A stretch of DNA of 64,000 bases from positions 186,001 through 250,000 of the forward strand of contig LODT01000004.1 in NCBI GenBank assembly GCA_001606155.1, given 5' to 3'. The position numbers and the translations under genes were made by a program. The stretch comes from Tieghemostelium lacteum. Taxonomy: Eukaryota > Evosea > Eumycetozoa > Dictyosteliales > Raperosteliaceae. Positions 2,088 to 62,757 of the stretch are shown here, piece by piece; within the stretch, counting starts at the first letter, position 1, and each line of letters begins with the position of its first letter. The notes under the pieces were generated by a model. That model had not been told where the DNA came from. It ran no database searches and saw nothing but the letters and a program-made list of their open reading frames with translations.

Positions 2088-2888
2088 ATGAAAGTAGAAA
2101 TTAGATTATTATTTAGTTTGGTATTATTGGTTGGTGTTTGTTATGGTGATTGGGCTAATGTGTATTTTGGTCTACCATGTAAGGAATCTAATCCCACTAT
2201 TATATATTCATCAATGACTGGTAGATGTATACCAGAGTATGGAACTATCATTGAATGTGATTATGAGAATAACCAAGTTATTTGGAAGAACTATAATGAT
2301 CCACAATGTACAATTAACACTTATAACACCACCTATCCATTCGATACCTGTTATACTAATAAAAGAGCCTATGTCACTTGCTCTGTTGAACAACTGACAT
2401 TTTCAAATCCTACAACTCAACAGATTACATATGGTAATTGTAAAGAGGATACTGATCCATTGACAGTCACCACATCATTCGTTGACCAATGTTTCTTACC
2501 AGAGTGGTATGGTGAGTGGTCTTACTACTCATGTAACGCTACTTATTTAACCATTAAGAATTATATCGATCAGAGTGAATTAACATCTTCAAGATCATCT
2601 TCTGATTATGATACCACTGCTACAATGTCTGGAGAAACTGCTGGGATCCTAGGTCTGTATGTTCAATCAAGTGAACTTCTAACAGCAGGAGGTAGTTCTA
2701 CAACAGGCAACCAATACCACAATTCATTATATCCACCACCACCTGTAAAATCTTTCCCTAAATACTCTATTGGAACTAACGAATGTACTGAACAATACTA
2801 TTCCTCAACTACCTATACAAAATTGACAAATAACCCAACTTGTAAATCCGGCAAAACTTTTATCACATGCGACAGTGGTAATTTTTAA
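2088..2888 (+). CDS. secreted Cys-rich protein, tandem copy 1
   Basis: I chose the ATG at 2088 because it gives a clean signal peptide (MKVEIRLLFSLVLLVGVCYG) followed by the mature start DWANVYFGLPC. The product is about 266 residues, with regularly spaced Cys through the chain and a Ser/Thr/Gly-rich linker before the last Cys cluster. There is no transmembrane segment or GPI signal, so secretion is likely. The gene at 2929 is a tandem paralogue: the two share TQQITYG, the NYIDQSELTSSRS block, the Cys framework and the C-terminal TFxTC ending. I do not recognise a named domain; this looks like a dictyostelid-specific extracellular family of unknown role. Confidence 0.85.
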   Translation: MKVEIRLLFSLVLLVGVCYGDWANVYFGLPCKESNPTIIYSSMTGRCIPEYGTIIECDYENNQVIWKNYNDPQCTINTYNTTYPFDTCYTNKRAYVTCSVEQLTFSNPTTQQITYGNCKEDTDPLTVTTSFVDQCFLPEWYGEWSYYSCNATYLTIKNYIDQSELTSSRSSSDYDTTATMSGETAGILGLYVQSSELLTAGGSSTTGNQYHNSLYPPPPVKSFPKYSIGTNECTEQYYSSTTYTKLTNNPTCKSGKTFITCDSGNF

Positions 2889-2928
2889 AATAAATTTTTA
2901 ATTTTCTAAAATATCAGACGCCAAAACA

Positions 2929-3714
2929 ATGGTTGTGCATTTATTGAGAATTCTATTGGTATTCTATGTGATTGGGAAGTGTTATGCTGAATGGGTTAAT
3001 GTATATATAGGTACACCATGTCATGAAACAGAGGCATCAGTTATATTCTCAGCTGTATCTGGTGTTTGTATACCACAGTACTCACTGATAATGCAATGTG
3101 ACTATGAGAATAGTATGGTAGTTTGGTACTCATTTAAAGACACAGCATGCACTGAATTATTGAATATGTATTCAGAGGTTATCAATGAATGTTACTATTC
3201 CAATAGAGCATTCGCCAATTGTTCTACGGAAGCATTGACATTTACCAAACCACATACACAACAAATAACCTATGGTGACTGTTCTGAAAGTACACAACCA
3301 ATATCAATTACAACAACTTTTATAGACCAATGTTTTATGGATGAATTCTATGGTTATTGGTCTATGCAATCTTGTAATTCTACTTATCTTACCATTCAAA
3401 ATTATATAGATCAAAGTGAATTAACTTCATCAAGATCAACTTCTGACTCTACTACTACTACCACTAATAGTATTACTGCAACTCTGTCGGGTCAAACTGC
3501 TGGTTCCAGTGGTTATTACATACCTCCTGAAAAATCAACATCAACTACAGGACCTTTAGAAATTTATCCAAATATAAGAAAACCCTCTTTAGCTTCAAAG
3601 AATGAATGCTCACAACAATATTACTCATCAACATACTACATTGAATTAACTGTAAAACCAACTTGTATAAATAGCCAAACTTTCACTACTTGTTCTCCAT
3701 CTTCTAAATTTTAA
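2929..3714 (+). CDS. secreted Cys-rich protein, tandem copy 2
   Basis: This is the paralogue of the preceding gene, in the same orientation and only 40 bases downstream of its stop. The ATG at 2929 starts a 261-residue protein with a signal peptide (MVVHLLRILLVFYVIGKCYA) followed by EWVNVYIGTPC, parallel to the DWANVYFGLPC start of copy 1. The NYIDQSELTSSRS block and the Cys positions are conserved; the Ser/Thr-rich linker differs in length and composition. Function is unknown. The tight spacing and sustained similarity indicate a local tandem duplication. Confidence 0.85.
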   Translation: MVVHLLRILLVFYVIGKCYAEWVNVYIGTPCHETEASVIFSAVSGVCIPQYSLIMQCDYENSMVVWYSFKDTACTELLNMYSEVINECYYSNRAFANCSTEALTFTKPHTQQITYGDCSESTQPISITTTFIDQCFMDEFYGYWSMQSCNSTYLTIQNYIDQSELTSSRSTSDSTTTTTNSITATLSGQTAGSSGYYIPPEKSTSTTGPLEIYPNIRKPSLASKNECSQQYYSSTYYIELTVKPTCINSQTFTTCSPSSKF

Positions 3715-3790
3715 ATTAAATGAACTAATGAACCCCGAAATTTCCAAATGAAATTTTTTATTTTTTTTTTGATTGGGTGTTATAGAAGTG

Positions 3791-4570
3791 ATGTTCATCT
3801 CAAAATTGAAACTTTTAAAGAATAGTAGTTCTTTGATTTTTATTGGAGTACCTAGATTACAACCTTTGAATGGTTGTGTAAGTTTTAGTACAAAGATTTA
3901 CACAAAGACAGGGGACAAAGGTACAAGTAGTTTGTTTAATGGGGAGAGAAGAAATAAAGATGATATGATATTTCATGTACTAGGTTCAGTTGATGAGTTG
4001 TCTAGTAGTATTGGTGTTGCAAAAGAGACTTTAGTAAAGTTTCCATTTGATAGAAAGAAAGATGTAGAAGGAAGTAGTAAGAGTACAGATCAAGATATAA
4101 TTGATAAATTAGAGTCTATACAATGTTTACTATTGGATATAGGATCACATATAGCAACACCAGAGTATTCTGAAGAAGCTTTTAAAAAACGTGCACAGTT
4201 TCCAGAAGAACATGTAGAGACTTTAGAGAAGGATATTGATTTTATGGATCAACATCTTCAACCTTTGAAAAACTTTATATTACCTGGAGGTGGTCTAGTA
4301 GCTGCACATTTCCATACCTGTAGATCTCTATGTAGAAGAGCTGAAAGAGATTTAGTCACACTCTCACATAGAGACCAAATACAACCACAGGTTCTAAAGT
4401 TCCTAAACCGTCTCTCCGATTACTTTTTCGCTCTATCTCGTTACTCTTCCTATCTATCCAACTCCACCGAATCCCTATACAAAAGACAATTACAATCATC
4501 TACCTCAACAACAACAACATCCAAAGACAAATACCAAAGACATTTAGAGAAAAGATCAACAAATGAATAA
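3791..4570 (+). CDS. mmaB: ATP:cob(I)alamin adenosyltransferase (MMAB/PduO type), mitochondrial
   Basis: The enzyme makes adenosylcobalamin, the cofactor of mitochondrial methylmalonyl-CoA mutase, from cob(I)alamin and ATP. The ATG at 3791 gives 259 residues. The first ~35 are basic and hydroxylated with few acids, as in a mitochondrial targeting peptide. Family motifs follow in order: KIYTKTGDKGTSSLFNGERR (ATP-binding N-terminal loop), VDELSSSIG, and FILPGGG...HTCRSLCRRAERD (active-site Arg/Glu helix), with DYFFALSRY near the end. Length and motif order fit human MMAB. The C-terminal ~25 residues are Ser/Thr-rich and probably disordered. Single exon. An oligo-T run just upstream (about 3757-3770) resembles the oligo(dT) element of dictyostelid promoters. 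Confidence 0.93.
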   Translation: MFISKLKLLKNSSSLIFIGVPRLQPLNGCVSFSTKIYTKTGDKGTSSLFNGERRNKDDMIFHVLGSVDELSSSIGVAKETLVKFPFDRKKDVEGSSKSTDQDIIDKLESIQCLLLDIGSHIATPEYSEEAFKKRAQFPEEHVETLEKDIDFMDQHLQPLKNFILPGGGLVAAHFHTCRSLCRRAERDLVTLSHRDQIQPQVLKFLNRLSDYFFALSRYSSYLSNSTESLYKRQLQSSTSTTTTSKDKYQRHLEKRSTNE

Positions 4571-53417: not shown

Positions 53418-54357
53418 ATGAAAATTGATTACAGAGCTATAAATCCAATAAAAACAGAGGTTCCTTTAGACTATTCTATATACAAAAAAAAAAAGAACAA
53501 CAGAAGAATGAACAAAACGAAAATAAAAATAACAATAACTCTATAGATATTCAAAGAAACAATAGATCAGATGAACAATTTAGGCAAATATGTAGGTTTT
53601 AGAGTTTATTCATGAATATGAAATTCTATATTAACCCCAATGTATACATATATACATGGAAATTATGATAGTTTTAAAAAGTGGTATAGTTTCACAGGCA
53701 TCAGGATCATGTTATATTGAAATTGAAAAAACTAAAGTACTGTGTTCTGTACACGGTCCAAGAGCATCACATAAAACCGAGGAATTTGTAGCTGCAAAAT
53801 TTAATTGTGAATTGAAATATACAACATTTTCTAGCAGCGTAGATAAATATGATTATACTGAGAATAATAAAGAGAAAGATCAAAGTTTGATAATTAGAGA
53901 GGCACTGATAGGGTCAGTTCGTTTGGAAAAGTATCCCAAAACAGTAATTGATATCTATATTTTGGTGTTAAATGATGATGGTAATGTAATGGTTGCTTCT
54001 ATTACTGCTGCCAGTATGGCTTTAGCTGATGCAGGTGTGGAAATGTATGATATGGTTGCATCATGTTCTTCAGTGTGCACTAAAGATAGAATTCTTCTAG
54101 ATCCTAGTTACCAAGAAGAATCATTACCAAATACCACAAATATACTAGTAGCTAAAATGCCAGCACTCAACCAAGTCACTCAACTTGTACAGTCTGGTGA
54201 CCTATCATATAATACAGTTATCGAAGCTGTTGATCTCAATATAGATGGTTGTGATAAAATCTATTCAATTATGAAACAAAATCTCATAGATTCCTTAGAA
54301 AAACAGTTAAAAGACAAAGACAACAATAACAACAATAATAATATGGATATCAAATAA
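53418..54357 (+). CDS. exosc6: exosome core subunit EXOSC6/Mtr3
   Basis: Exon 1 53418-53591, exon 2 53672-54357. Donor GTAGGT at 53592, acceptor …TTATGATAG at 53671, phase 1. Exon 1 starts MKIDYRAINPIKTEVPLDYS and only reaches …SDEQFRQI if one A is added to the A11 run at 53484-53494; as read it hits a stop. The spliced join gives FRQIFLKSGIVSQASGS, the RNase PH-fold start. Family motifs follow: IEIEKTKVLCSVHGPR, EEFVAAKFNCELKYTTF, REALIGSVRLEKYPKTVIDI and ITAASMALADAGVEMYDMVA, close to EXOSC6. Mtr3 is a catalytically inactive ring subunit in 3'-5' RNA decay and rRNA processing. An Asn-rich tail ends the protein. Confidence 0.88.
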
Positions 54358-54410
54358 ACAGATCTGTACAAAAGTAGGTAAAAAAGTTTGTAAGATATCA
54401 GGTTTATTAT

Positions 54411-56246
54411 TTATTTTTTAAAGTATTTATATACTATAAAAGAGGCTATAGTTAAGACAATGCTTGATGTAACTATATATTTTAATAGATTTGGTTTTTT
54501 GGAACGTCGCACAAAATTGTCATACATATTTAGATACATATCAATCTTGTCACTATCTATATCCATATTTTTAATTTTTTCAATCAATTGATTTGACTTT
54601 TCATAGTTACCCAATTGGTAATGACATTTTGCTGAGGTATATATTAACCTTGACATTACAACATTATCATGTAATTCACAATTTTGAGCAAATTTTATTC
54701 CCAAAGTAGTATAATATAAACATTCTCTGTAATTTCTGAGATTGTAGTAGATATCAGAGAGGAATGTAAGTGAGATTCCATAAGGTGGTGCCTGTTCATT
54801 GTCAGCGTTTAGTTGTAAGATTTGTTTGTGGATTTCAATTGACTCTTCAACTCTATTCATACACCCATAGCATAAAGCAATACCTAGAAGTATAGATGAT
54901 GGTTCTATTACAGGGTCTTTATGCTTTTCTTCGTATATCTTATTTAGGTGTTCAACTTGACGAAAGTGCTCTAGAGATTCTTGATATTTTGCAATATCTG
55001 GTTTTGATTTAAGTTCACCAATTCTGAGGAGAATAAGTAATTCGTGATCATCTCCAGTACCTTTAATAAGAGGTAAAGCCTCTTCAATCCATTGCAGACT
55101 TGTATTGACATCTGGTTCTTCTAAAACCTCATCGAATACCTTTGAACCAATGAATAAAATTACAGCTTTGTTTAAATTATCCCTATATTCATTACTTCTG
55201 AGATAATAGAATACGTGTCTTGAAAGTAATAAACATTCATATTGGAATTCATATAATTCAGCTCGAAGGGCTGATATCATTTTTAAACACATTTTAAAAT
55301 ATACATCGGGATTATCTATTTGTTCTCTAACTTTCTTTACAGAAGATCTATAGGGTTCAATTTTAATACTATTTTCAGTGATTTTGATCTGTCTCCATAG
55401 ACCAAAATACTCCATGGTATTTGAAAATACCTTTAATTCATCTAATTTCTCATTAGGAAACATTTTGAACAACCATTTAAAATTACAAAAATAGGGACCA
55501 AACCAACAACAGTATGATATCAACTCCAGATTGAAATCTTTATCAGTTTGGAAATGAGATAAAATCAATCGAATTAGTTCATTCTGAGAAACTTCTTGAT
55601 GAGATTGAAGTTTCTCTAATAAATAACCAACTGTATCTTTCTTTATAGTATTCATATATCTTGCCAACATTTTACTAAACACTGGATTACCTTGTGTAAT
55701 CTTTTTAGCCATTTCCATCTGAGCATCAGTCAAATCAACCTCAAGATACTCTTTCAGTAACAAAGTACAATCATCATCAGATCTAACATTACCCAATAGA
55801 TAATGAGTAACATGCTCCAGTTCTCTGAATTCCTGTGATCTTATAATAATAATATGATGATTACTATTCATTGATTGTATAGAATCCTTATCTAATGGTA
55901 ACTTTTTAGATAACACCTCATAGATTTCAGCATCAGAATGATGTGTTATATTTCTAACAACGACCAAAACCTTATCACCAACACATTTTTTCATTATATA
56001 CCCTGGACTTGCTTCTGGTTGTTGAAAACTATAAAATTGGTCATTACACATCCAACCCAACTCCAAATCAGTAAATTCATACATATATTTATATGTACAA
56101 TTATATTTTTCATAATAGTATCTAACTAAACTAGATTTTCCAGTACCATCTTCTCCATGAATAACTATACATTTATCTCTATTTAAAATAGATTGAATCT
56201 CCTCAATTTCTTTCTCTCTACCAATTATTTTCTCCTCTTTATTCAT
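54411..56246 (-). CDS. STAND P-loop NTPase-TPR, tail-anchored, copy A
   Basis: 611 residues from ATG 56246 (an upstream TTG extension is not used). Order: IIGREKEIEEI entry motif; Walker A GEDGTGKS at 31-38; a strand with DKVLVVVRNITHHSDAEIYE where the Walker B acid would be (Arg-Asn instead); a HHIIIIRSQEFREL strand (sensor-1/RNBS-B-like); LLLKEYLEVDLTDAQ helical domain; QGNPVFSKMLARY (the G-x-P motif of NB-ARC/STAND proteins); a helical middle; TPR-like repeats (~440-580); and a single C-terminal transmembrane helix (YIVTSSIVLTIASFIVYKYF) ending KK. The layout resembles NLR/STAND signalling proteins. Tail anchoring with flanking basic residues suggests the mitochondrial outer membrane, peroxisome or ER. 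Converges with EXOSC6, 53 bases apart. Confidence 0.75.
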   Translation of the reverse strand: MNKEEKIIGREKEIEEIQSILNRDKCIVIHGEDGTGKSSLVRYYYEKYNCTYKYMYEFTDLELGWMCNDQFYSFQQPEASPGYIMKKCVGDKVLVVVRNITHHSDAEIYEVLSKKLPLDKDSIQSMNSNHHIIIIRSQEFRELEHVTHYLLGNVRSDDDCTLLLKEYLEVDLTDAQMEMAKKITQGNPVFSKMLARYMNTIKKDTVGYLLEKLQSHQEVSQNELIRLILSHFQTDKDFNLELISYCCWFGPYFCNFKWLFKMFPNEKLDELKVFSNTMEYFGLWRQIKITENSIKIEPYRSSVKKVREQIDNPDVYFKMCLKMISALRAELYEFQYECLLLSRHVFYYLRSNEYRDNLNKAVILFIGSKVFDEVLEEPDVNTSLQWIEEALPLIKGTGDDHELLILLRIGELKSKPDIAKYQESLEHFRQVEHLNKIYEEKHKDPVIEPSSILLGIALCYGCMNRVEESIEIHKQILQLNADNEQAPPYGISLTFLSDIYYNLRNYRECLYYTTLGIKFAQNCELHDNVVMSRLIYTSAKCHYQLGNYEKSNQLIEKIKNMDIDSDKIDMYLNMYDNFVRRSKKPNLLKYIVTSSIVLTIASFIVYKYFKK

Positions 56247-56339
56247 TGTATTGTCATCTGAGTGTTTAAATAAAAAATTCAAAAACCAATTAGAAAAATG
56301 ACAAAAATGTGGGTGTAAATGTAATATTAATATTACAGT

Positions 56340-58193
56340 TTATTTTTTTAGATATTTATACAATAAAAACCCAACAGAAATTAATATTGTTGATGTGGCT
56401 ATATATTTTGTAGATGCTGAAATTAGAGCTTGTGGATTTTCTTGGGTATAGATGTGAAAGTCTTCCAAGTAAATTGATTTTTGTGGATATTCTTTTTCAT
56501 CAAGTTCATTAATCATTTTAATAAAGTAATTTGATTTCTTGGTATTACCTAATTTGTAATGGCACTTGGCTGAGTGCAAGTACTGATCAATGGTAGAGTG
56601 ATTGTACAATTGGGATACTCTGATACTCTGTGAAGAGTAATGCAAACACTCTATATAGTTATTCAAATGGAAATAAGTTCTAGAGATAGAGTATAGTGCT
56701 GTAGCATAAGTAGGTGATTTCTCATCATCCATTACCATTTCCAATACACCACGGAAAGTTTCAAGAGCTTCATCATACTTTTTCAATTTATCCAAACAAC
56801 CACCAATTTTCAGTAATGTGGAGGAATGCATAGATTTGTTAACCTTCAATTTATGCTTTGCTATAAAGGCATCACCTAACTTTACAACTTGTCTAAAGTG
56901 AATTAGTGCTTGTGCAAAGTTTGATATTGGTTGTGAGAGATTAATTTCAGCAAGAATTCTGTGAGCGTTATTTTCCAAAAGTTCACCAGAACCTCTGACA
57001 ACATCCAAACATTCTTCAGCCATTTCCAAAGCCGTATAAGGTTGGTTATAGTACTTTTCCAATGCCCTAGCACAGTGAAGTGATATTCTAGCCTTTTGAA
57101 CTTCATTGAAATATTCCTTACTGTGGAAATAGTAGAAAATGTGTCTTGACAATATTAAATACTCAAGTTCGCTATCTTCAGGCATCAGTGATGTAGTTGT
57201 AATTAAGAAATCATTCAGATACTCTGATTTCTGATTAATGTTCTCTCTTATTCTTTTGCAAGCTGATCTAGTAGGTTCAATTATAATTTCATCACCACTG
57301 ATTTTATTCTGTCTCCAGAATCCAAAATATAACATGGTCTCATAGAATATCTTGCAATCGTCAGTATTTAAAGATTCACCTTCAACAATCTTTTCAATCC
57401 ATGAAAATAGCATAGAGAAACTACCAAACCAACAAAAAGTAGATAGAAATCTTAAATTGGCGTATTTACCAGACTTGAAATCACCAATAATTCTTCTAAC
57501 CAATTCATTTTGAGCATCCAAAATATTGTTATAAAGGTCTTCCAAAAGAGTATCAATTGCATCTTTCTTTACAGTATTAATATATCTTGATAACATTTTA
57601 CTAAACAAGGGGTTACCATTAGTGATATTTTTGGCATGTGTCAATTGAGTATCAGTTAATTCAATTTCCAGATACTCTTTCAATAGAAGTGTACAATCAT
57701 CATCAGACTGAATATTCTTCAAATGATAGTGAGTAATGTGTTTTAGTTCTTTAAATTCCTGTGATCTTAATATAATAAGATGATGATCATCTCTCATTTT
57801 TTTAATGGAATCTTCGTCCAAAGGTACCTGTTTTGATAGAGTTTCATAAATCTCAGCATCAGAGTGATGGGTTATATTTCTAATGATAATCAAAGACTTT
57901 CCTTCACACCAAGACACATAATCTTTCATAGATGAAAACTTAGATTTATCTTCAGGTTTTGCAATTTTAGATATCCATTTAGGGCTAAATTCAAAATCAG
58001 AGATTTCAAATACATTATCATATTCCAAAGCCTCACCTATACCAACTATATGTCTTAGCATACTACTTTTACCATTACCATCATCACCATAAATAACAAC
58101 ACATTTTTCTTTATCTAGAATATCTTTAATCTCTTTCAGTTCTTTGTCTCTACCTATAAGTTTATCTTGTTTATCTTCTTTAATCCCAACCAT
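56340..58193 (-). CDS. STAND P-loop NTPase-TPR, tail-anchored, copy B
   Basis: 617 residues from ATG 58193. Same architecture as copy A and its closest relative: LIGRDKELKEI; Walker A GDDGNGKS at 36-43; KSLIIIRNITHHSDAEIYE, again with Arg-Asn in place of the Walker B acids; HHLIILRSQEFKEL; LLLKEYLEIELTDTQ; NGNPLFSKMLSRYI; a helical middle with the same F-W-R-Q-(N)K-I line; TPR-like repeats (DEALETFRGVLEM, YATALYSISRTYFHL, KCHYKLGNTKKSNYF); and a tail anchor (YIATSTILISVGFLLYKYLKK). Spaced 93 bases upstream of copy A in the direction of transcription. No intron seen. Function is unknown; see the copy A entry for the family argument. Confidence 0.75.
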   Translation of the reverse strand: MVGIKEDKQDKLIGRDKELKEIKDILDKEKCVVIYGDDGNGKSSMLRHIVGIGEALEYDNVFEISDFEFSPKWISKIAKPEDKSKFSSMKDYVSWCEGKSLIIIRNITHHSDAEIYETLSKQVPLDEDSIKKMRDDHHLIILRSQEFKELKHITHYHLKNIQSDDDCTLLLKEYLEIELTDTQLTHAKNITNGNPLFSKMLSRYINTVKKDAIDTLLEDLYNNILDAQNELVRRIIGDFKSGKYANLRFLSTFCWFGSFSMLFSWIEKIVEGESLNTDDCKIFYETMLYFGFWRQNKISGDEIIIEPTRSACKRIRENINQKSEYLNDFLITTTSLMPEDSELEYLILSRHIFYYFHSKEYFNEVQKARISLHCARALEKYYNQPYTALEMAEECLDVVRGSGELLENNAHRILAEINLSQPISNFAQALIHFRQVVKLGDAFIAKHKLKVNKSMHSSTLLKIGGCLDKLKKYDEALETFRGVLEMVMDDEKSPTYATALYSISRTYFHLNNYIECLHYSSQSIRVSQLYNHSTIDQYLHSAKCHYKLGNTKKSNYFIKMINELDEKEYPQKSIYLEDFHIYTQENPQALISASTKYIATSTILISVGFLLYKYLKK

Positions 58194-58267
58194 TTTCTAG
58201 AAACACTATTTTATATGATTGCTTTTGGGTTTTAAAAAAAATCAGTGACAAAATCATCATTTATTAA

Positions 58268-60151
58268 CTATTTTTTAAAATATCTAAATAAAACAAAAGA
58301 TGCAATGGACAGTAATAGAGTTGAAGTTACAATATATTTAGTAGCTACTGGTATGATGGATAGTGGTTTGTGTGTAGATGTAAAGATTTTGAAATCGTCA
58401 CGATAGGTTTGTTTCAGTGCTGCGGAGGTGATTTCGTCATTGAGTTTTTCAATTTTGTCTAAATAGAATTTAACTTTCTTTTGGTCACCTAATAGATAAT
58501 GACTTTTGGCAGAATAAATGTATTGATCAATTACCACATGTCCATACAATTCAGCAACTCTGATGGACTGTGAACAGTAGTATAATGTCTCTTTATAATG
58601 TTTCATTTGGAAATGAACTTTGGCTAGATAGTAAAGTGTATCTGCATACTCTGCAAACTTTTCATGTTCTGTGATATTCAGTATATCTAGTGCCTGTTGA
58701 TGTGACTCTATAGCCTTATCCAGCATTTTCAAATTTTCAAAACATATACCAATTTCATTGAGAATATAATTGTTAACAAGAACATTAGGTTTTTGATGTT
58801 GCTTAATTTCATATTCATCCTTCATTTTGATATAGATTCTGTAGTGACTGATTGCATCATTATATAATGCAATTTGTGGATTCTTTTTAATGACACCAAG
58901 GTACCGATGAGCAATAGATTCTATAAATGTATTGGAACCTCTGATTAAATCTAATCCCTGATTTGCATATTTTAGTGCGAGTTGAGGGTTAAGATATGCA
59001 GACTCTGTAATTCTAGCGCACATAATGAGTATTCTAGATTTTTGTAATTTAAATTCAGGATAGTTTTGACTGAAGAGGTAATAGAACAAGTGTCTATAGT
59101 ACAAAACATCATCGGAGACACCTAAACTAGGTTGTAGTCTATAAGACATTATAAGGAAATCTGAAAAGTATTCTTTTTTCTCCTCGATAATTGATCTAAA
59201 CAATTTACAAGTGGATCTTTGTGGAAATAGTTTAGGAGTGACATCGAATTTCATTTCAAAATCCCATATACCATAATACACCATTGCATCAATGAATTTT
59301 TCAACCAAATGTGGGGTTATATTTTCATTATTTGCAATTTTAATAATCCACTCTCTTTTTACAGTGTAATGACTATACCACAAGAATATAGAGAATAGTC
59401 TCAAATAAGGACCTGCTTTAAAGTCTTTGTATATCAATCGCAATGCCATGAGTTTAGGGTCTTCACATCCTTGGAAATTCTCCAATAGAGAGTCTACACC
59501 AGTCTTATGTACATTCAGTAACTTGGAAATGTGTTTAGTTACCAATGGATTACCTTGTGAAATACTAGTGGCAAGGCTAAGCTGTGCATCTGTCAACTCA
59601 AATTCCAAATACTTTTTATACAACAAGATATCATCTTCAGTTTTCAAATTCTTCAATTCATAGTGTTTTAGGTAACTTAGTTCTTTAAATTCTTTGGATC
59701 TTATGAAAATGATATGTACATTGTCTCTCAGGTTCTGTAGAGACTGTTCATCAATTGGCAAGTACTCTGATAACTCTTGATAAATCTGAGCATCTTGATA
59801 CTGTGTCATATTATTAACAATGACCAGTATACGACTACCAACATAGTTCATTATCAAATCCTTTATACTTTTGAATGACTTCTTTTGTAAAACAGGTTTG
59901 AGTTGAAATTTTACAATTTGGACACTATAATTCAAATCACTAAAATCCAATACAAAATCATATAGATAATCTTTATCATCAGCTTCGTCAAATTGATTTA
60001 AAAGTTGAGATATAAATGATTCTTTACCAACACCATCTTTTCCATGTAATACTACAATTTTCTCTTTATACAATAATTCTTTAAACTCTATAAGTTCTTG
60101 ATCTCTACCAATATACCCAACAACAGGTTGAGCACTATTCATTTCTGTCAT
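58268..60151 (-). CDS. STAND P-loop NTPase-TPR, tail-anchored, copy C (most diverged)
   Basis: 627 residues from ATG 60151 (MTEMNSAQ; a second ATG at 60142 is possible). Same order as A and B: YIGRDQELIEFK, then GKDGVGKE at 37-44, where Glu replaces the Ser/Thr that follows the P-loop Lys; SRILVIVNNMTQYQDAQIYQ, without Walker B acids; VHIIFIRSKEFKEL; KYLEFELTDAQLSLA; QGNPLVTKHISKLL; helical middle; TPR-like repeats (DKAIESHQQALDI, YADTLYYLAKVHFQM, SAKSHYLLGDQKKVKFY); tail anchor (YIVTSTLLLSIASFVLFRYFKK). First of the three in transcription direction and 74 bases from copy B. Glu after the Lys makes normal Mg-ATP coordination unlikely. Confidence 0.75.
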   Translation of the reverse strand: MTEMNSAQPVVGYIGRDQELIEFKELLYKEKIVVLHGKDGVGKESFISQLLNQFDEADDKDYLYDFVLDFSDLNYSVQIVKFQLKPVLQKKSFKSIKDLIMNYVGSRILVIVNNMTQYQDAQIYQELSEYLPIDEQSLQNLRDNVHIIFIRSKEFKELSYLKHYELKNLKTEDDILLYKKYLEFELTDAQLSLATSISQGNPLVTKHISKLLNVHKTGVDSLLENFQGCEDPKLMALRLIYKDFKAGPYLRLFSIFLWYSHYTVKREWIIKIANNENITPHLVEKFIDAMVYYGIWDFEMKFDVTPKLFPQRSTCKLFRSIIEEKKEYFSDFLIMSYRLQPSLGVSDDVLYYRHLFYYLFSQNYPEFKLQKSRILIMCARITESAYLNPQLALKYANQGLDLIRGSNTFIESIAHRYLGVIKKNPQIALYNDAISHYRIYIKMKDEYEIKQHQKPNVLVNNYILNEIGICFENLKMLDKAIESHQQALDILNITEHEKFAEYADTLYYLAKVHFQMKHYKETLYYCSQSIRVAELYGHVVIDQYIYSAKSHYLLGDQKKVKFYLDKIEKLNDEITSAALKQTYRDDFKIFTSTHKPLSIIPVATKYIVTSTLLLSIASFVLFRYFKK

Positions 60152-60256
60152 TCTTCTCAACAATCTGAATCTTAAAAAAAAAATTTAAATCAATTTTCTA
60201 AAAATTCATTTTTGATTTATTAAAAATATCTTGTGTTTTGTGTTAGACTATTTTAA

Positions 60257-60379
60257 GTTACTTCCTATTATTTCACTGATAAAGGATTTATTGATTCTGG
60301 AAGAGGTAGTTCTCACGGGGACCAATTGGAATCTGAGGATAGATTATATTTACTAAATCAACTAATAGATGTATTGTAG
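60257..60379 (+). pseudogene. 40-codon coding-like fragment, no start
   Basis: Open frame reading VTSYYFTDKGFIDSGRGSSH…LLNQLIDVL-stop, with strong protein character (Gly, His, Glu, Arg mixture) but no ATG upstream before the neighbouring gene. A TTTTAAG immediately before it could be an acceptor. Possibly the last exon of a lost gene. No family recognised. Confidence 0.25.
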
Positions 60380-60541
60380 AAAAGATATCAAATTATTTAA
60401 ATAACAGTAAATTAAACCGTGGAAATCACATATGTTTGTAGTTGTATATAATTATTCTTGAATTTTTATTTAAATAGTGTAAAGATAATATATATAAACA
60501 AGAATTTAATTTCTTTTCTTCTTTTTAATTTATCATTAGAG

Positions 60542-60914
60542 TTAGTTTACTAAAATATTGTGTACGTATATTAATAGTAAACTTACATATTGCGAAATAT
60601 ACATACATACCATTGAAAAATATTGTGTATGTATACATGCATGCAATGGAAGACCAGAGACTATATTGATTATAACCTGAATATCTGTTTCAGTGTATGA
60701 ATAGTGTTCTGCTATGATATAGAGTCTTTGACTAGTATGCATTTGTAATAGTTTCAATTCTTTTGTCCCAAAACTCACAAACTCTTTCACTGGTGTGGTA
60801 AATGAATACTATCATATGAGGAGTTTTAATTATTATTGGGTTGCCAAAATGGGTAGGTTTAGTCAATACAATATAATCCCTGATCAACATCATCATCTGC
60901 ACCTGCATTACCAA
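60542..60914 (-). pseudogene. coding-like fragments in two minus-strand frames
   Basis: Downstream of ferroportin on the same strand. One frame (60914-60732) reads …DYIVLTKPTHFGNPIIIKTP…CEFWDKRIETITNAY-stop. A second (60790-60542) reads …HTSQRLYIIAEHYSYTETD…VSGLPLHACIHTQYFSM. Composition is protein-like, but the frames overlap and neither has a convincing start, so either a small spliced gene or a decayed one. No homology recognised. Confidence 0.2.
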
Positions 60915-61008
60915 TATGAAATACTTTTTATATTTACTAATTATTATGATAAGACTTATACATCCAACATCTTTGATTATTAATGATTTCTAGGGTCCAA
61001 TAAGGTGT

Positions 61009-62757
61009 TTATTTTTTGAATCTCCATATTAAAAGTATGAAGAATCCTAATTGAATGAAACCTACAGATAACCAAATTAGAATACTGAAATACTGTGGTG
61101 AATTGATAATGATACTAGTTAAGAATACAATAAGCATACTTAAACTAGTTAATGATGATTCTACACCACTGACAATACCTCTGATTTCATCAGGAACATA
61201 TTTTTGTACAAAATTAATTTCACAAATTTCAAAGCCGTATAACCCACATCTTGAGAGAACTATAAAAACTAAAAATTGATATTTCATCCAACTGTTACTC
61301 TGAATAAATGAAAATGTAATTCCAGTTGCCAAAACCATGATAGCCTGCTCCATCAAATAGGCTATGGATGAATTCTCCAACCCAATCTTGGACACAAACC
61401 ATGTGAATGTAAATGTAGATGCCAATCCAAATACCGCTCCTATACCTCTAAATAGAGATAAATCTAAATTATTATATCCACCATGACCCGACAGATAAGC
61501 TGTCAGAACAGGGTCGTGAGGACTCAGTAGAGTAAACCACAGACAAACATAAGCTATAATAATAAGTCTAGCTTGTTTCTGGTCTAGGAATATTCTCCAA
61601 CCTTTAATAATATTTGTCAAGGGGTTCCATTGACCCATAATCACCTTTTTAATCTGATCAAGTCTTTCATTGAGAGGTACCTTCTGTTTTACTGGTTTTT
61701 CATAATTTGCCAAATAGGTATCTATATCCTCCGTCTCCTCAGGTTTCTCAGGTACATTGTCAATCTCAAATGACTTCTCCTTACAAATGGCTCTGACTCT
61801 AGCCAGTAGAAAATACTGTGGCCAAAATGTGAGGAAATTGAATATCAATATGATTACAAATGACAATGCCTGGACTGACAGATTACGTATATGTACAGGT
61901 CCCATAATCTCAGGTGTTGACAGTATACCAGCTATAAAAGGTGCCAATACCTCAGTTGCCAAATCAACCTGTCTCATTTGAGAATTCACCTTTGTCAAAA
62001 CTACATCTCTTTTTACAACTGCTGGTAACCATTTTCTCTCTACTGATATATTCATAATCTGACCGCTGAGTGAATGTAATGCTCCAAACAATAGTAATAC
62101 CAAAAAGAGTATAGTTGAATCTGGTGAATAGAATAAATCAGAGTCTATTGGATTGGGTTCAGTAACCTTATCTTTTAGACGCAGTAGACAGTACAATGCA
62201 ACACCAGTAACTGAAACTGATCCCATTTGACCGAATATACCTACTCTAATGACAATTAACTTTCTATTCTTATCAATCATATCACCTACAGAAGCACCAC
62301 ATACTATTCTAATTAAAGTAGTTGCCAAACCATACAAGGCAGTAGGTACCAAAGATGAAGGTGTAATATAAATCAATACCAAAGGTACTATAAACTCCCA
62401 CATTCTATCACCCATTCTAGTTATAAAATGACTTAATAACATATAATTTGCCAGTTTTGACTCCACATCCTTCTCGAGTACCATCATATCAATTTCTTCA
62501 TTACCATCTAAATCCACTTGAGAAAATGATGATTTTAAATTATCATCTCTATCATCTCCATCATCATTATCCCTTTCCTTACTACTATCCATTTTCTTTA
62601 GTAATATAGCATTGTCATTATTATCATTATCTTCTTCATCTCTACCATTATCAACAATATGTAATACCACTCCATCCTGATTATCATTCTCTATAATTGG
62701 TAGCATACCACTATCATCATGAATATCATCTTCCATATTCAATGAGCTAGATATCAT
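61009..62757 (-). CDS. ferroportin-family iron exporter (SLC40A)
   Basis: 582 residues from ATG 62757. A ~100-residue acidic Asp/Asn-rich N-terminus precedes the SLC40 core. The first membrane segment carries the ferroportin signature MLLSHFITRMGDRMWEFIVP, followed by ALYGLATTLIRIVCGASVGDMIDKNRKL (the GDxIDKNxRL loop). About 11-12 hydrophobic segments follow, with a long cytoplasmic loop around 330-390. A second conserved half includes LSRCGLYGFEICEINFVQ and DEIRGIVSGVESSLTSL. Ferroportins move Fe2+ out of the cytosol or out of vesicles; which membrane is not clear here. No intron. A direct iron-regulatory element was not seen. Confidence 0.9.
   Translation of the reverse strand: MISSSLNMEDDIHDDSGMLPIIENDNQDGVVLHIVDNGRDEEDNDNNDNAILLKKMDSSKERDNDDGDDRDDNLKSSFSQVDLDGNEEIDMMVLEKDVESKLANYMLLSHFITRMGDRMWEFIVPLVLIYITPSSLVPTALYGLATTLIRIVCGASVGDMIDKNRKLIVIRVGIFGQMGSVSVTGVALYCLLRLKDKVTEPNPIDSDLFYSPDSTILFLVLLLFGALHSLSGQIMNISVERKWLPAVVKRDVVLTKVNSQMRQVDLATEVLAPFIAGILSTPEIMGPVHIRNLSVQALSFVIILIFNFLTFWPQYFLLARVRAICKEKSFEIDNVPEKPEETEDIDTYLANYEKPVKQKVPLNERLDQIKKVIMGQWNPLTNIIKGWRIFLDQKQARLIIIAYVCLWFTLLSPHDPVLTAYLSGHGGYNNLDLSLFRGIGAVFGLASTFTFTWFVSKIGLENSSIAYLMEQAIMVLATGITFSFIQSNSWMKYQFLVFIVLSRCGLYGFEICEINFVQKYVPDEIRGIVSGVESSLTSLSMLIVFLTSIIINSPQYFSILIWLSVGFIQLGFFILLIWRFKK

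Follow-up and report, generated by a model that had tools for sequence, protein, structure and literature searches.

A probable old and dispersed family of NLR-like proteins with anchor-like tails and an apparently eroded nucleotide site in Tieghemostelium lacteum

The 64,000-nucleotide stretch of Tieghemostelium lacteum contig LODT01000004.1 analysed here (hereafter the window) carries a tandem array of three genes, W1, W2 and W3. The best explanation is that their products belong to a tail-anchored protein family, old and dispersed in the genome, whose members combine a STAND (signal transduction ATPases with numerous domains) module with tetratricopeptide repeats (TPR), and that some copies of it are decaying. 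We tentatively read the family as organelle-anchored, largely non-hydrolysing sensors or scaffolds that resemble nucleotide-binding leucine-rich repeat (NLR) proteins, probably on mitochondria and with changing ligand specificity (probability about 0.45). Each part is known, both as STAND-TPR proteins and as tail-anchored TPR proteins, and the combination as a diverse, often non-catalytic family appears, within limits, to be new. The literature searched, which was partial, held no earlier description of an anchored STAND-TPR family, and dictyostelid orthologues may be annotated elsewhere.

Architecture of the array proteins

The three open reading frames (ORFs) encode 611, 617 and 627 amino acids (aa), all lie on the minus strand and are separated by intergenic gaps of 93 and 74 bases. 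Each is uninterrupted, with its own ATG and its own stop. Coordinates, strand and spacing agree exactly with the original prediction, which was made from the sequence alone.

54411..56246, minus strand: gene W1, 611 aa, with STAND (NB-ARC-like) module, TPR superhelix and C-terminal tail anchor ending in IVYKYFKK (from ORF, alignment and motifs)
56340..58193, minus strand: gene W2, 617 aa, with STAND module, TPR and tail anchor as in W1 (from ORF, structure model and fold matches)
58268..60151, minus strand: gene W3, 627 aa, with the architecture of W1 and W2 and a degenerate Walker A motif, GKDGVGKE (from ORF and motifs)

In the structure model of W2 (pLDDT 87.7, pTM 0.81), a STAND module that includes a winged helix is followed by a TPR superhelix and, at the C-terminus, an anchor helix. 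Its P-loop fold with helical and winged-helix domains is the arrangement by which STAND proteins and AP-ATPases are recognised. We set the bounds of the nucleotide-binding, helical and winged-helix domains from the model.

57684..58169, minus strand: nucleotide-binding domain of W2, residues 9-170
57228..57683, minus strand: helical and winged-helix domains of W2, residues 171-322
56436..57227, minus strand: TPR superhelix of W2, residues 323-586, 13 helices (from the model; the Pfam model TPR_12 matches above its cut-off)
56343..56423, minus strand: tail anchor of W2, residues 591-617, a helix with the basic end YKYLKK (from the model and hydropathy)

The solved folds scoring highest against the W2 model include Apaf-1, the plant NB-ARC proteins NRC1 and NRC2, and a STAND-TPR protein. 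Chains with NB-ARC and TPR lead the VIA rows among the matches listed. A profile of the N-terminal half, built from 12 of the 14 intact family members (L001 and L015, with damaged P-loops, were omitted), matched the plant NLR Roq1 among the sequences of the Protein Data Bank (E=1.2e-5 over 250 positions). TPR_12 matches 13 of the 14 members at E<=0.001. The architecture thus goes beyond chance, given the Roq1 profile match, the breadth of the TPR_12 matches and the confident model. For the array genes, computation confirms a STAND module, the TPR superhelix behind it and an anchor-like helix at the C-terminus. The original prediction of a STAND or NB-ARC-like fold joined to TPR and a tail anchor was therefore borne out by the W2 model, the fold matches, the Roq1 match and the motifs, and the fold that it proposed to look for by structure prediction is present.

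In the Pfam searches TPR_12 is above its cut-off in W2. The NTPase models AAA_16, ATPase_2 and nSTAND3 all stay below their curated cut-offs in W1-W3 (AAA_16 in W1 reaches 31.6 against 32.6 bits), and the NB-ARC model is listed, below cut-off, for W3 only. No N-terminal effector or adaptor domain was found in W1-W3, the entry motif of the NTPase falling inside the first 16 residues.

Erosion of the nucleotide site

Each array protein has a G-R-D/E entry, a P-loop-like loop, a GNP motif, TPR helices and, at the C-terminus, one hydrophobic segment with a basic end behind it. The motif set predicted for each gene stands in this form except for the P-loop of W3 (GKDGVGKE), which has no Ser/Thr of a true Walker A. 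The motif is complete in W1 (GEDGTGKS) and W2 (GDDGNGKS), and in two further intact members of the family, L017 and L048 (4/14 overall). The Lys of the motif survives in 13 of 14, and the loop has been lost from L015. Walker B acids are absent from all array genes, the position reading R-N in W1 and W2 and N-N in W3. Across the family an acid occupies the second position in 7/14 members (that of L015 sits beside an alignment insertion) and the first in 3/14 (L017, L039 and L048). A complete Walker A together with a Walker B acid is found in L017 and L048 alone (2/14).

Other positions of the module are better kept. An Arg like that of sensor-1 or RNBS-B is present in W1-W3 and in 8/14 members, and the Pro of the GxP (GLPL) motif, GNP in W1-W3, in 12/14. 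All 14 members share H138, where the sensor strand begins, and R316, in the region of the winged helix, which argues that the STAND module is constrained, apparently not by hydrolysis. No MHD His occurs in the array; the stretch judged equivalent, from predicted secondary structure and not from residue-level superposition, reads IEPTRS, IEPYRS and LFPQRS. An active NTPase switch in the array is doubtful because W1, W2 and W3 all miss the Walker B acids, and the NTPase of the array and the wider family looks eroded when judged from its motifs.

An old and dispersed family

The genome searched has 43 contigs and amounts to 23.3 Mb. An NB-ARC search gave the first family member beyond the window (L001), and searches with five family members as queries gave the other loci, a sixth query adding none. 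The family comprises at least 17 loci, 14 of them outside the array; of the total, 14 are intact single ORFs and three are frame-disrupted. Intact loci are spread over contigs C2, C9, C23, C24, C26, C27, C31, C33 and C35, and the disrupted copies, which may reflect real decay, introns or assembly error, lie as follows.

C38:157229-158999: frame-disrupted copy
C2 near 1.35 Mb: frame-disrupted copy
C31:999321-1001093: frame-disrupted copy, directly behind the intact L015

The array genes are mutually 35-43% identical. Pairwise identity is 35-50% within the subclade W1, W2, W3 and L003, and 22-31% in other pairs. In the maximum-likelihood tree L003, a locus of contig C23, groups with W1 and W2 (support 98/98), and the array forms a single group in 0% of 200 bootstrap trees. 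For each of the six subclade pairs the synonymous divergence (dS; NG86 method) is greater than 1. Per-region ratios of nonsynonymous (dN) to synonymous divergence, meant to reveal faster evolution of the TPR part, were unusable owing to saturated dS (three values undefined), and dN and identity were used instead. The family is therefore old and the array no recent local burst, since dS is above 1 and a relative of the array sits on another contig. Recent tandem duplication, the local expansion proposed originally, was rejected on these grounds: the identities are low, L003 nests within the array, the array is not monophyletic, and 14 further loci exist.

A second tandem pair is formed on C31 (997456-1001093, L084/L085) by L015, whose P-loop is lost, and the frame-disrupted copy behind it, which retains a P-loop (GEPGIGKST) and a tail. 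Near the broken copy on C2, an adjoining ORF encodes a P-loop protein (L059:2186-3472) with a weak AAA_16 match below cut-off (E=0.0015). A large TPR protein on C40 near 36 kb (L031:190-2574), which strongly matches the TPR model of nephrocystin-3, is matched by family members through its TPR part only.

A C-terminal tail with the layout of the Miro tail

A C-terminal hydrophobic stretch with a basic end is found in 13 of the 14 intact members, with L017 as the exception. W1, W2 and W3 each have a single such segment and a short basic end, the layout by which outer-mitochondrial tail anchors are recognised. At a 17-residue hydropathy cut-off of 1.5, 12/14 members pass; W2 scores 1.44, which is moderately hydrophobic, and L017 has no tail. 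Among other ORFs 5/50 pass, three of them being fragments of broken family copies; without these the count is 2/47, and the remaining 47 still include a few pieces of broken copies. The three disrupted copies each retain such a tail in one frame. Within the subclade of W1, W2, W3 and L003 the tail is 54-72% identical and has the lowest dN, and the four remaining regions show 28-54% identity. These figures are coarse, the tail having only 24-29 residues.

Miro is encoded by one gene, gemA, in D. discoideum, according to the available part of the source (PMC4100572). The T. lacteum homologue is L092 (PF08356 above cut-off), and the reading frame after it, which we take as its last exon, ends in a tail laid out like those of the family. 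Summed over the 14 members, the likeness to the Miro tail was reached by 7/1000 full shuffles of that tail. An expanded dibasic motif has been described for plant outer-mitochondrial tail-anchored proteins in the accessible portion of another study (PMC4154396); 9/14 family tails follow the pattern and 5/14 do not.

Fis1 was unusable as a second mitochondrial control, because the protein that matched is longer and its membrane segment is internal. This 354-aa ORF (L093:1003-2067, C11 near 423.7 kb) has, by eye, an N-terminal part like BTB/K-tetramerisation domains, followed by a Fis1-like TPR part (Pfam Fis1_TPR_C) and the internal hydrophobic segment. Its domain composition makes an unusual fission adaptor possible.

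The only intact member without a tail anchor, L017 (L017:1561-3378, C23 near 73-75 kb), also stands alone in combining a GKS Walker A with a DD Walker B. No hidden exon restoring the tail was seen, a stop codon preceding the splice-like sites inspected by eye. In the genome search, however, the alignment of this locus ran on through three stops and reached query residue 612, which makes a recent loss of the tail possible. L017 might be a soluble active partner of the anchored, eroded members.

Origin and genomic context

Horizontal transfer from bacteria or phages was considered and rejected, the matches being taken as distant STAND relatives and not as donors. Confirmed candidate stretches numbered 17/202 for bacterial contigs and 4/299 for viral contigs, most of them 33-70 residues at the P-loop. 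The longest bacterial matches cover 265 residues at 25% identity (L062) and 199 residues at 23% (L064). Phages gave no family match. The PADLOC defence models returned 0 matches for W2, and four models each found in 1/14 members were not taken as evidence.

The array is flanked by an RNase PH match (53656-54357, plus strand) and a ferroportin match (61009-62757, minus strand) by Pfam. No non-coding RNA was found in 54000-61000 and no tRNA in the whole window. The array has the base composition of the window (0.303 and 0.306). Elsewhere in the window, at 2088-4570, lies a run of three ORFs on one strand, each about 260 aa long, with gaps of 40 and 76 bases. The last of them is a match to cobalamin adenosyltransferase, and for the first two Pfam gave nothing at E<=0.001.

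Relation to known systems

The closest structural likeness is to 6mfv, a STAND protein with a TPR sensor and the top Foldseek match (E=1.7e-12). It shares the order of nucleotide-binding, helical, winged-helix and TPR domains and differs in sequence (12-14% identity), and its whole-length superposition is poor (rmsd 13-14). We know of no C-terminal tail anchor in this protein. The AP-ATPases Apaf-1 and CED-4 differ from the array by the C-terminal anchor and the lost Walker B acids of the latter, and Apaf-1 carries CARD and WD40, both missing from the array proteins. In contrast to the plant NB-ARC proteins and NLRs (NRC1, NRC2, Roq1), the array has TPR instead of leucine-rich repeats, no TIR or coiled-coil (CC) domain and no MHD His, and it does not reach the NB-ARC cut-off of Pfam. 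The bacterial P-loop-TPR proteins L062 and L064 match W1 over residues 8-272 (25%) and 2-200 (23%), and their ORFs continue, by eye, into TPR-like repeats. They are larger, with other domains before or after, and show no tail anchor by eye (the L064 ORF runs off its locus). Miro/Gem1 and other tail-anchored outer-mitochondrial proteins have the short C-terminal hydrophobic segment with a basic end in common with the family, their cytosolic domains being unrelated. Tail-anchored TPR proteins do exist on mitochondria.

Fungal PLP-1 and PNT1 likewise join NB-ARC with TPR. Unlike the array proteins, these have an effector or amyloid motif at the N-terminus, and the part of the paper available describes no tail anchor (PMC12881547). 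The bacterial iSTAND and iSTAND2 families, which we liken by description only, share a STAND fold with eroded nucleotide motifs and have been proposed as sensors; unlike the array they are bacterial and linked to effector-associated domains, in what was available of the source (PMC8195603).

Competing explanations

In the organelle-anchored reading, the entire protein would be held by its anchor on the cytosolic surface of an organelle, most likely on the mitochondrial outer membrane, and the TPR superhelix would bind a peptide or protein. The STAND module would hydrolyse little or no ATP and act mainly as a scaffold for folding and clustering; in W1 and W2 it may have nucleotide bound. As no N-terminal effector domain was seen, output might come from local clustering of the anchored proteins or from recruitment of partners. 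The divergence and the broken copies suggest that ligand specificity shifts over time. The same mitochondria-like tail and broken copies fit, and do not show, the hypothesis of a defence or organelle-stress sensor. A more specific proposal is a mitochondria-anchored and mostly catalytically dead NLR-like repertoire that keeps tail and fold as its ATP chemistry erodes and would be activated by ligand-driven clustering on the organelle surface instead of ATP-driven switching; it is rather unlikely to hold.

Several observations weigh against anchored, non-hydrolysing sensors. The anchor helix has a pLDDT of 45-70 and is, with the N-terminus, the least certain part of the W2 model. Loss of the Walker B acids is no proof of lost nucleotide binding or switching. 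The family tail, compared at the level of sequence, resembles the Miro tail in layout and not in exact residues: shuffles done in blocks, with flank, core and end each kept separate, reach the summed score in 106/1000 cases, and W3 alone does no better against Miro than full or block shuffles. Miro was also the sole known tail-anchored control compared, and since its tail itself fails the dibasic pattern as coded here, the motif is weak evidence and no sharp test. An anchor in the peroxisome or endoplasmic reticulum, with a role in organelle contact or shape, would accommodate the five members without the motif. Mitochondrial and peroxisomal tail-anchored proteins share short, moderately hydrophobic tails with basic ends. 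Such a location is improbable given the resemblance of the tail layout to Miro, a comparison with one mitochondrial control.

The proteins could instead be TPR adaptors on an organelle surface, like Tom70 or plant Tom20, that serve in import or chaperone docking and keep the STAND part for dimerisation or as a structural relic. We judge this unlikely. At least 17 divergent loci, three of them broken, are unlike a housekeeping import receptor, the TPR matches of the family are generic, and the conservation of H138 and R316 in all 14 members implies that the STAND part is not free to decay. Less likely again are classical NLR-like defence switches, ATP-dependent and ligand-triggered oligomers that kill or alarm the cell against intracellular bacteria or viruses. 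Fold and domain order are those of Apaf-1 and NB-ARC proteins, the family is divergent with broken copies, and the NB-ARC-TPR proteins PLP-1 and PNT1 act in fungal allorecognition and cell death, as far as the accessible text of the source goes (PMC12881547). However, the array has no Walker B acids, no MHD His and no N-terminal effector, and the Walker A of W3 is incomplete.

Implications

If the reading as anchored, largely non-hydrolysing sensors or scaffolds is true, the family would show how an Apaf-1/NB-ARC module works without its switch, its fold retained, a C-terminal organelle anchor standing in place of an N-terminal effector and its ATP chemistry fading. Should the location hold, NLR-like proteins would sit on the mitochondrial surface in a group of organisms that serves research on cell death. 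Genetic work is feasible in social amoebae, and this reading is therefore open to experiment.

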